Positions 32,478 to 35,439 of a stretch of DNA of 41,182 nt are shown here, piece by piece (the first letter of the stretch is position 1; each line of letters begins with the position of its first letter). The notes under the pieces are model-generated. The model saw only the letters and a list, made by a program, of their open reading frames with translations, was not told where the DNA came from and did no database searches. This stretch comes from Candidatus Aminicenantota bacterium (lineage in GTDB: Bacteria; Acidobacteriota; Aminicenantia; Aminicenantales; Saccharicenantaceae): the NCBI GenBank assembly GCA_016867635.1, contig VGJC01000005.1, positions 1 to 41,182 of the forward strand. Direction: 5' to 3'. Both the position numbers and the translations under genes were made by a program.

Positions 32478-33794
32478 TCAGCCGACCTTGCGGGCTTCCT
32501 GCTTGAAGTCCTGCTGCCAGAGCGTCAATCCCGTCACGTCGCCCTTCTCGCCGGTGTGGAACTGGATGCGGATGTAGGGATCGACGGAGAAGAAGAAGGT
32601 CTGGCTTTCCACGTAGAACCTCGTCGGCGCCTGCCCGGTCGGGCGGATGACGAGATAGTAGTCCTCGTGGGTGACCTCCAGCGCGTATTCCGGCGTCACC
32701 TCGTAGCGCCCGACATATCCCGCGTAGATCGACGGATCGAGCCGGTAGAGCGTCTTTTCCACGGGCTTGAAGTCCGGCCATCCATAGACCTCGGCCAGCG
32801 CCCGGAGGACTTCGTCGGCCAGCAGGAGCCCGTTGGCGCTGTTGGTCATGATCACGGCCCCCTGTCCGCGGTAGGGGTAGATGTCGAGCGTGCAGGCGAA
32901 ACCGGCGGTCCGCCCCCTCAGATGGAAGCGCACGTCCTGCCCCGAGCCTTCGATGGCCAACCCGAAGCTCCTCGTCCCGGCCTGCGGAGTGAGCATGGCC
33001 CTGGCGGCGGGCGGAGGGAGAAGGCGCCCACCCTTGTCCATGGCCGAGGCCATGAGATCCGCGGCGAACGAGACGAGCTCGGCGGGCGACGTCCACAGAC
33101 CCGCCGCGGCCGGGGCCGGGTCAAGGAGGGGGCCTCCCTGGACAGGCCGGCCGTCCCGGTCATAGCCCGAGGCCGCCGAGGCCGGCGGGCCCTCCGACGG
33201 CGCGTCCTTGAAAGCGCTGCGGGTCATCCCCAGCGGCCCGAGGACGAGCTCCGAGAGGAGGGCCGGAAAGGGCTTTCCCGCCGAGTCCTCAAGGAGATGT
33301 TGGAGAACGGCGTCCCCGGCCTCAGGATCGTCCGTCAGAAGCTCGCGCAGCGTCACGCGGGCTTGACCGGCGGACTCGTCCGGCGGCCCTTCCCGCTTCT
33401 CGAGCCTCGCATGGGCGGGCCCGTCGAGATCCAGACGGCCTTGGGAGACGAGGATCAGCGCGGCCGCCGCGCTCAAGGGCCGCGCGAGGGCCCCGGCCTG
33501 GAAAAGGGTTTCGGTCGTCGCCGGCTCCTGGGTCCGCGCGTCGAGAACACCGTACGCTTTCGCCCATTCGAGCTCGTGGCGGTCCATAACCGCCAGCGAC
33601 AAGCCGGGGACCCGATAGAAAGGCATACGGGCCGACAGAGCCAGCTTCTCCGGCTTCTGGCCCTTGATGGTCACGGCCCGCAGCAGCCCCTTCTCGACCT
33701 GCTTGATCCTTTTCCCGGTCAGGGACTCCTGAGTTTCGCAGCCGGACAGGAAGATGACGGACATCGCCGCGGCCAAGATCGCTTTTCGGCCCAT
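32478..33794 (-). CDS. Beta-lactamase-fold (class C/serine hydrolase-like) lipoprotein, probably inactive
   Basis: Lipobox MSVIFLSGC; PGLSLAVMDRHELEWAKAYGVLDARTQEPATTETLFQAGALARPLSAAAALILVSQGRLDLDGP; ELVLGPLGMTRSAF. SxxK replaced by ALAR. Confidence 0.8.
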   Translation of the reverse strand: MGRKAILAAAMSVIFLSGCETQESLTGKRIKQVEKGLLRAVTIKGQKPEKLALSARMPFYRVPGLSLAVMDRHELEWAKAYGVLDARTQEPATTETLFQAGALARPLSAAAALILVSQGRLDLDGPAHARLEKREGPPDESAGQARVTLRELLTDDPEAGDAVLQHLLEDSAGKPFPALLSELVLGPLGMTRSAFKDAPSEGPPASAASGYDRDGRPVQGGPLLDPAPAAAGLWTSPAELVSFAADLMASAMDKGGRLLPPPAARAMLTPQAGTRSFGLAIEGSGQDVRFHLRGRTAGFACTLDIYPYRGQGAVIMTNSANGLLLADEVLRALAEVYGWPDFKPVEKTLYRLDPSIYAGYVGRYEVTPEYALEVTHEDYYLVIRPTGQAPTRFYVESQTFFFSVDPYIRIQFHTGEKGDVTGLTLWQQDFKQEARKVG

Positions 33795-33800
33795 ATAGAT

Positions 33801-33829
33801 ATTGTAGAGTGAATCATGCCTTATAACAA
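33801..33829 (-). promoter_or_regulatory. Promoter of the beta-lactamase-fold gene
   Basis: Minus strand TTGTTA (33829-33824), 17 bp, TACAAT (33806-33801), 6 bp before the ATG. Confidence 0.5.
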
Positions 33830-33843
33830 GCACGGCCGGATAC

Positions 33844-33872
33844 GGGGACACGTACTCCTTGTACGTGTCCCC
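33844..33872. repeat. GTACGTG palindromic repeat (REP-like hairpin)
   Basis: GGGGACACGTAC-TCCTT-GTACGTGTCCCC, perfect 12-bp stem; same family as 1149-1177. Confidence 0.85.
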
Positions 33873-33896
33873 AACTTCTTCCTCAGAGATTGGCGG

Positions 33897-34144
33897 AGGA
33901 TCACCGCGCGGACGGAGACGACCGCTGACAACAGGGCCGAGGGGTGTCGTCGAAGGGAGCATAAAGCGGTGATCCAGCCGGACAGGGGGACGGACGAGGG
34001 TATCCTCGCAGAGGACGGCTCACGATGTCTGAGCCTGCTATCGAGAGGACTAGTCTGGATCCCGCGAGTTTCGTGAGCCGCCGAGCCCGTCCCCCTGGGA
34101 GGCGAAGAGGATCACCGCGCGGACGGAGACGACACCCCGAGGCC
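33897..34144. repeat. Nested-stem intergenic element with two 26-bp direct repeats
   Basis: AGGATCACCGCGCGGACGGAGACGAC at 33897-33922 and 34108-34133; five stems in the enclosed region (coordinates in findings). Confidence 0.8.
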
Positions 34145-34148
34145 GGTC

Positions 34149-34176
34149 TTGACGGGGACGCGCCCTTTGCTATACA
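34149..34176 (+). promoter_or_regulatory. Promoter of the DUF1015 gene
   Basis: TTGACG (34149-34154), 16 bp, TATACA (34171-34176); RBS CGGAGG before the ATG at 34198. Confidence 0.65.
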
Positions 34177-34197: not shown

Positions 34198-35439
34198 ATG
34201 GCACACATCGAACCCTTCCGGGGCGTCCGGCCCCGAAAAGACATCGCCCATCTCGTCGCCGCGCCGCCCTACGACGTCCTGAGCTCGGAGGAGGCCCGGG
34301 AGATGGCCGCGGGCAACCCGCATTCGTTCCTTCACGTCGGCAAGCCGGAGATCGACCTGCCGCCCGGGACCGACCTCTACTCGGGCGCGGTCTACGCCAA
34401 AGGCCGGGAGAATTTCCGCCGGCTCATCGAGGACGGAACGATCTTCCAAGACGCCGCCGCGAGCTTCTACATCTACAAGCAGGTTTGGGGCGACCACGTC
34501 CAAGTCGGCCTGGTCGCGGCCGCGTCCTGCCAGGACTACCTCGACGGCGTCATCAAGAAGCACGAGCTCACTCGGCCCGACAAGGAGAACGACCGGATGC
34601 GCCACATCGAGACGCTGGGCGCGCAGACCGGCCCCGTTTTCCTGACCTACAAGCGGAGCGACGCGGTCGACGCCCTCGTCGCCCGGGCCATGGAGAAGGG
34701 CCCGGAGTACGACTTCGCGACCGGCGACGGCGTCCGTCACATCTTTTTCGTGGTCGACGACCCCGCCCTTGTCCGGGACATCCGGGGCGCCTTCGCCGCT
34801 CTCCCCTGCCTCTACGTCGCCGACGGCCACCACCGCTCGGCGGCGGCGACCCGCATCAAACAGAAGCGGGACAAGGAGCGCCCGGGCCGCACCGGCCGCG
34901 AGGACGACAACTTCTTCCTGACCGTCATCTTCCCCCACAGCCAGATGAGGATCCTGGCCTACAACCGGGTCGTCAAGGACCTCCACGGCCTCGATCCGGA
35001 GGCCTTTCTGAAGAAGGTCGCCGAGAAATTCGACGTCCGCGACGAGGACCGCGCGGCGCCGCGCAAGAGCAAGGAGTTCTGCCTGTTCCTCGACGGCCGC
35101 TGGCGCGTCCTCGAGGCCAAGCCGGGAACCTACGGCCCCGCCGATCCCATCGGGTCCCTGGACGTCTCCATCCTCCAGACGAACCTCCTGGCCCCGGTCC
35201 TCGGCATCGCCGACCCGAGGACGGACAAGAGGATCGACTTCGTCGGCGGCATCCGGGGCACGGCCGAGCTCGAGAAGCGGGTCCGCGGCGGGGCGTTCCG
35301 GGTGGCCTTCTCGTTTTTCCCGACGACCATCGATCAGCTGTTCGCCGTGGCCGACGCCGGCAAGGTCATGCCGCCGAAGTCGACCTGGTTCGAGCCCAAG
35401 CTCAAGGACGGCCTGGCCGTCCACATGATCGGCGAATGA
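34198..35439 (+). CDS. DUF1015 family protein
   Basis: MAHIEPFRGVRPRKDIAHLVAAPPYDVLSSEEAREMAAGNPHSFLHVGKPEIDLPPG; LYVADGHHRSAAATRIKQ; NDNFFLTVIFPHSQMRILAYNRVVKDL-type segment. Confidence 0.92.
   Translation: MAHIEPFRGVRPRKDIAHLVAAPPYDVLSSEEAREMAAGNPHSFLHVGKPEIDLPPGTDLYSGAVYAKGRENFRRLIEDGTIFQDAAASFYIYKQVWGDHVQVGLVAAASCQDYLDGVIKKHELTRPDKENDRMRHIETLGAQTGPVFLTYKRSDAVDALVARAMEKGPEYDFATGDGVRHIFFVVDDPALVRDIRGAFAALPCLYVADGHHRSAAATRIKQKRDKERPGRTGREDDNFFLTVIFPHSQMRILAYNRVVKDLHGLDPEAFLKKVAEKFDVRDEDRAAPRKSKEFCLFLDGRWRVLEAKPGTYGPADPIGSLDVSILQTNLLAPVLGIADPRTDKRIDFVGGIRGTAELEKRVRGGAFRVAFSFFPTTIDQLFAVADAGKVMPPKSTWFEPKLKDGLAVHMIGE

Follow-up and report, generated by a model that had tools for sequence, protein, structure and literature searches.

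A strand-specifically folding, non-coding palindromic repeat family in one genus of Candidatus Aminicenantes

The window, that is, the whole 41,182-nucleotide stretch of DNA that was analyzed, carries between two divergent genes a nested-hairpin element that is one copy of a non-coding interspersed repeat family. We hold with high confidence that this is a repeat family; it is apparently undescribed and occurs in one genus of Candidatus Aminicenantes, and the literature covered (sources other than subscription journals) contained no account of a repeat like it from Aminicenantes. The element is probably a non-autonomous, apparently mobile palindromic interspersed repeat that does not code for protein, is confined to this genus and is folded as a single strand. 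Our confidence in any particular manner of movement is low.

Distribution and architecture of the family

The draft genome containing the window (2.66 Mb, 298 contigs) holds at least 11 long copies at 80 to 90% identity, 7 short copies and many partial ones, and gives 18 matches to a covariance model built from 38 short copies. The shorter class has only its outer part in common with the window copy. Several copies lie at contig ends, and with many copies in such positions the family may help explain why Aminicenantes draft genomes are fragmented. The covariance model detected the family in every one of the 13 genomes of the genus (1 to at least 33 matches per genome) and gave no match in the 129 genomes that represent the rest of the class. 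Matches per near-complete genome are uneven, from a single one in G002 to 24 in G004, and at least 33 were counted in G011. The named relatives are metagenome-assembled genomes (MAGs) of Candidatus Aminicenantes. Among viral contigs, neither the exact core motif nor a related exact pattern was found. Altogether, 132 distinct copies were catalogued, few of which overlap a predicted open reading frame (ORF). The element is thus multi-copy, non-coding, shorter than about 300 bp and mostly intergenic, as short interspersed palindromic repeats of the MITE/ERIC/BOX/YPAL kind are, with near-terminal inverted repeats (the P1 arms and the stems nested within them) forming a long hairpin.

All copies have an outer shell in common, in which P1 and P2 (GCGGTGATT/AATCACCGC) are the stems and an asymmetric internal loop separates them. 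P1 reads GGCC-GA-GGGG...CCCC-GA-GGCC, with a tandem GA/GA mismatch; one strand of the internal loop carries a near-invariant AGCMTAAA and the opposite strand GCGAACGGAG. About one third of the copies have an additional stem outside P1, called P0, which occurs in many compensated versions, including GGCCGCGGA/TCCGCGGCC, GGCCGCCGA/TCGGCGGCC, GGTCGCCCG/CGGGCGACC and GGCTGCGGA/TCCGCAGCC. What varies is the inner module, such that unit totals cluster around 109, 122, 137, 144, 158, 205 and 216 nt. The 216-nt class, to which the window copy belongs, is nearly restricted to the window's genome, and the 109-nt and 158-nt classes are found in one genome each. The window's genome contains the apical segment of the window copy's class 12 times, and a search of 296 other genomes of the phylum gave one unrelated match; TGTYTGAGC...GCGAGTTTCG was accordingly rejected as a widespread motif and is private to the window's genome. 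In a separate variant (L080, L085 and L255), an extra insert on the 3' side, AATAAACCCATTCGACTCCCCGG...GTTGGTGG/CGAACGTATCACCGC, appears to be another repeat nested within the element.

The ends of the element are GGCCGAGGGG/CCCCGAGGCC, and the features of the window copy are collected in Table 1. All of the stems named in the earlier note lie where it had placed them and are present in the minimum-energy RNA fold of the + strand. Its exact direct repeats are indeed exact, with a length of 27 bp (33896-33922 and 34107-34133) in place of 26. The proposed exact fit between the two flanking promoters is good on the right side, where TTGACG begins 4 nt beyond the element; on the left the fit is loose, as about 70 nt and an unrelated REP hairpin separate the promoter from the element.

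Table 1. Features of the window copy and its surroundings (positions in the window)
Feature	Positions	Strand	Basis
Left gene, beta-lactamase-fold protein with DUF3471 (context)	32478-33794	-	PF00144, E 9e-33
Probable left-gene promoter, TTGTTA-17-TACAAT	33801-33829	-	TTGTTA and TACAAT boxes
REP-like hairpin GGGGACACGTAC-n5-GTACGTGTCCCC, separate from the element	33844-33872		Inverted repeat; copies flank Y1 (RAYT-type) genes in congeners
Remnant of a 5'-truncated tandem unit upstream: 3' strands of P2 and P1 (27-bp repeat, copy 1) and linker CGCTGACAACAG	33896-33934	+	Exact repeat; leader GACGACCGCTGAnnCC-GGGGCC in other copies
Element unit, long class (about 216 nt), from GGCC-GA-GGGG to CCCC-GA-GGCC	33935-34144	+	Copies in own genome; covariance-model matches
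P1, 5' strand, pairing with 34128-34144; tandem GA/GA mismatch inside	33935-33951	+	Inverted repeat; helix in family alignment
Asymmetric internal loop, 5' side, AGCMTAAA motif	33952-33965	+	Invariant AGCAT-AAGCGG columns
P2, 5' strand GCGGTGATCC, pairing with 34109-34118	33966-33975	+	Four pairs changed on both sides in family alignment; covarying helix also in long copies
Exchangeable inner module, long type; stems 33984-33993/34087-34096, 33995-33999/34004-34008 and 34016-34025/34071-34080	33984-34096	+	Stems covary; module classes
Apical segment TGTCTGAGC...GCGAGTTTCG, private to the window's genome	34026-34073	+	12 places in the window's genome (G000)
3' strands of P2 and P1 (27-bp repeat, copy 2) and element end CCCCGAGGCC	34107-34144	+	Fold; repeats
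Probable promoter of the DUF1015 gene, TTGACG (34149-34154)-16 nt-TATACA (34171-34176)	34149-34176	+	Read by eye
Right gene, DUF1015 protein (context)	34198-35439	+	PF06245, E 3e-106

The direct repeats had been taken as the basis of a switch in which the first repeat competes for the middle segments of the hairpin. This first repeat is the leftover 3' part of a truncated tandem unit upstream. In G011, three tandem units follow one another with a 104-nt period and are joined exactly by a GACGACCGCTGAnnCC-GGGGCC linker, and the same GACGACCGCTGAnnCC-GGGGCC leader precedes a subset of copies elsewhere. The preceding unit of the window copy, like those at C220 and C34, breaks off within its own hairpin; solo 3' halves are common in the family. 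The upstream P2 strand is present in only 11 of the 132 copies, so the upstream repeat is not a conserved feature, and the direct repeats were rejected as a conserved switch. The alternative pairing is therefore a by-product of tandem duplication and truncation, and the cuts in the preceding units may themselves reflect processing of hairpin tips.

Conservation of the fold and of its strand

The + strand of the window copy folds at -145.4 kcal/mol, compared with -115.4 +/- 5.2 kcal/mol for dinucleotide shuffles, none of which was as stable in 200 attempts (z = -5.7). The - strand folds more weakly, at -131.3 kcal/mol. Among the 38 short copies, aligned with plain MAFFT and with the structure drawn from that same alignment, 97.3% of the pair cells hold standard pairs and 14 pairs are changed on both sides, against 6.0 in shuffles (0 of 500 shuffles reach 14). 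This covariation signal is abolished when the partners are slid by 1 to 3 columns. The 11 long copies of the window's own genome behave similarly, with 98.2% of cells paired and 8 pairs changed on both sides (4.3 in shuffles), and each of the four inner stems contributes to these double changes. On the + strand, 154 G.U pairs were counted against 27 A.C pairs, and of 126 copies 97.6% fold more stably as this strand, with a mean advantage of 12 kcal/mol; these counts ignore shared descent, as do the fold counts, and alignments A2 and A3 had been fitted to the model structure. Tandem GA mismatches contribute to the + strand advantage besides G.U. The fold is preserved by compensatory change, specifically on the + strand. 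The sequence is therefore not the single-copy, unconserved and non-covarying one that the earlier note had allowed for.

A strand-specific fold, strong covariation and a near-invariant internal loop, together with several sites common to different species, are also what a functional structured RNA would display, i.e., a small RNA or cis-regulatory leader duplicated within the genus, its mobility being incidental. Nevertheless, 60 of the 121 copies with two called neighbors (heuristic gene calls) lie between divergent genes and thus outside both expected transcripts. This position argues against a role in mRNA and gives mild support to folding of single-stranded DNA. In the window, the unit has no consistent promoter or terminator around it and no U-tract terminator was seen, and a search of the whole window against Rfam, which the earlier note had suggested, gave no match above the gathering score. 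The inner module is freely swapped, and the copy number differs widely between the near-complete genomes G002 and G004. A functional RNA is consequently an unlikely explanation. From the earlier suggestion of an unrecognized structured RNA, what survives is that one strand is kept foldable, and nothing beyond that.

Turnover, genomic setting and candidate drivers

Genomes G004 and G005 are 96 to 97% identical in the regions compared. At three sites, the element is present in G004 and missing from G005, with diverged flanks, and these three pairs gave no clean case of a target-site duplication. At one further site, G004 carries an additional unit relative to G005, and the junction, GGGGCC/GGCCCC, is precise; this is the single GGCC junction case. 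Each of these polymorphic sites may reflect either gain or loss. The window's own locus provides another empty site: it was read in 11 congeners, none of which has the element ahead of DUF1015, and the gene preceding DUF1015 in them is a kinase or diguanylate cyclase (GGDEF) gene. In the congeners compared, the GGDEF gene and DUF1015 have between them no counterpart of positions 32478-34144, which comprise the beta-lactamase-fold gene and two repeats. Since another gene precedes DUF1015 in those congeners, the beta-lactamase gene and the repeats appear to form a block specific to the window's genome. With many copies in its own genome, a genus-wide distribution, and filled and empty sites in sister genomes, the earlier proposal of a non-autonomous mobile or repeat element is supported.

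At about 10 orthologous sites, elements lie in the same register (within 7 nt) with different inner modules between species, one example being 136 nt in G004 against 205 nt in G010. Such differences would be explained by conversion from other copies as well as by repeated insertion at one site. Sites common to many species fit slow turnover better than active mobility. Two further observations concern these genomes. At L255, L252 and L253, the intergenic regions of G005 are occupied by other long palindromic repeats, such as AGATATTTACCAGAATTGTGGC...CAATTCTGGTAAATATCT and GAAGTGCRGCTCCGAG..., where the sister genome has the nested-hairpin element. At L138 and L163, an inverted short copy lies beside a long copy in G004 and G005, in two places with differing outer flanks, as if the pair had moved together.

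The proximity of copies to promoters and stop codons raised a different explanation, namely a DNA-level insulator or bidirectional terminator maintained beside such signals. Of the 81 copies without P0, 31 have a TTG(A/C) box no more than 26 nt from their 3' end, compared with 4 of 51 with P0; mostly the box lies 5 to 8 nt into the scanned stretch. Copies also abut the stop codons of genes on the opposite strand. Against this, only 9 of the 121 copies are held by convergent gene pairs, and the window lacks the U-tract expected of a terminator. Moreover, several sites keep their -35 box in both G004 and G005, with intergenic DNA that is different throughout, right up to that box. The ends of copies a few bases short of TTGAC are explained in this way, and the position of the element can therefore reflect turnover up to functional limits. 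We regard an insulator or terminator as very unlikely. The element was also rejected as the source of the -35 box, given that TTGAC persists in the element-free sister genome.

Which enzyme might move a non-autonomous repeat of this kind was approached through the Y1 transposases and reverse transcriptases of the genus. Y1 transposases are present in 10 of the 13 congeners, the hairpin is strand-specific, and the REP hairpin GGGGACACGTAC/GTACRTGTCCCC adjoins several element copies, the window copy included, all of which would suit a REPIN-like element moved as a single-stranded DNA hairpin by Y1/RAYT transposases. However, the core motif of the element was found within about 1.5 kb of Y1 genes at 0 of 25 loci. 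Where a repeat flanks the Y1 genes, it is the GGGGACACGTAC hairpin, which lies on both sides of Y1_Tnp genes at L217, L223 and L224. In addition, G005 (96% complete) has 12 element matches and no Y1 match, making movement by these transposases improbable. A retroelement, such as a retron or a group II-type RNA, is suggested by a superficially similar layout (an AGC after the first stem and terminal inverted repeats) and by 5'-truncated copies; no reverse transcriptase domain (RVT_1) was found in 10 of the 13 congeners, including the window's genome, and with no Rfam match either, membership in this class is extremely improbable. Reverse transcriptases and Y1 transposases were both set aside as drivers, as neither is linked to the element copies. 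The genes between neighboring copies look ordinary and non-transposase by their translations, and no autonomous partner with shared ends was found among these genes or the Y1 loci.

We therefore return to the mobile palindromic repeat folded as a single strand as the preferred reading. The family would behave as a mobile palindromic repeat whose + strand would have to fold single-stranded for copies to spread. The folded molecule would most likely be single-stranded DNA, in replication or in transposition by a host-encoded enzyme, or possibly RNA. Older copies may be overwritten through recombination with other copies, and trimming of hairpin tips could leave 3' halves such as the 27-bp upstream repeat of the window. 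A bolder version, which we consider a minor possibility, is that a strand-specific folded single strand both spreads and overwrites resident copies, with the hairpin shell serving as a docking site for modules and a putative enzyme recognizing the AGCMTAAA/GCGAACGGAG loop.

Comparison with known bacterial repeats

REPs are 20 to 40 bp long and carry a GTAG or CGTC tag (PMC3116915, PMC3733652). REP/REPIN sequences associated with RAYTs are likewise palindromic extragenic repeats, some of them clustered (PMC3116915, PMC3733652); judged by length and location, the Aminicenantes unit, at 109 to 217 nt and not beside Y1 genes, does not belong with them. ERIC (or IRU) is a 127-bp intergenic stem-loop repeat with no known dedicated transposase that is co-transcribed and affects mRNA stability (PMC2229807). 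Both it and the Aminicenantes element are intergenic stem-loop repeats, differing in taxon and sequence.

By size, G+C content, palindromic form and empty or filled sites, the nearest system is YPAL (RU-2) of Yersinia (PMC2229807), a likeness that implies no homology. There, YPAL is given as about 168 bp, palindromic, not A+T-rich and intergenic, its mobility having been inferred from empty and filled sites, with insertion at or next to dyad symmetry and target duplications of 3 to 26 bp. In contrast to those duplications, the Aminicenantes element offers one GGCC junction only, and its exchangeable inner module is a feature not described for YPAL in the text consulted.

By modularity, the nearest is BOX of Streptococcus pneumoniae, a composite repeat with constant ends, a variable interior, an extensive predicted RNA fold and a moderate copy number (PMC3049150), the likeness being one of layout with no homology implied. 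The interior of BOX is a tandem array of one boxB module, and its mobilization by an insertion sequence (IS) with similar ends has been proposed (PMC3049150). In Aminicenantes, by comparison, entire modules of different types stand in for one another within nested stems, units also occur in tandem, and no IS with similar ends was found among the Y1 loci and the genes between copies. The family is thus of a known kind of bacterial repeat, with unusually clear strand-specific covariation and module exchange. With selection for the fold on one strand and exchange of modules at fixed sites in a dozen related species, it is a well-resolved case of a palindromic repeat. It offers a means of distinguishing spread through single-stranded DNA, through RNA and through gene conversion, which is equally at issue for ERIC-, BOX- and YPAL-type repeats.
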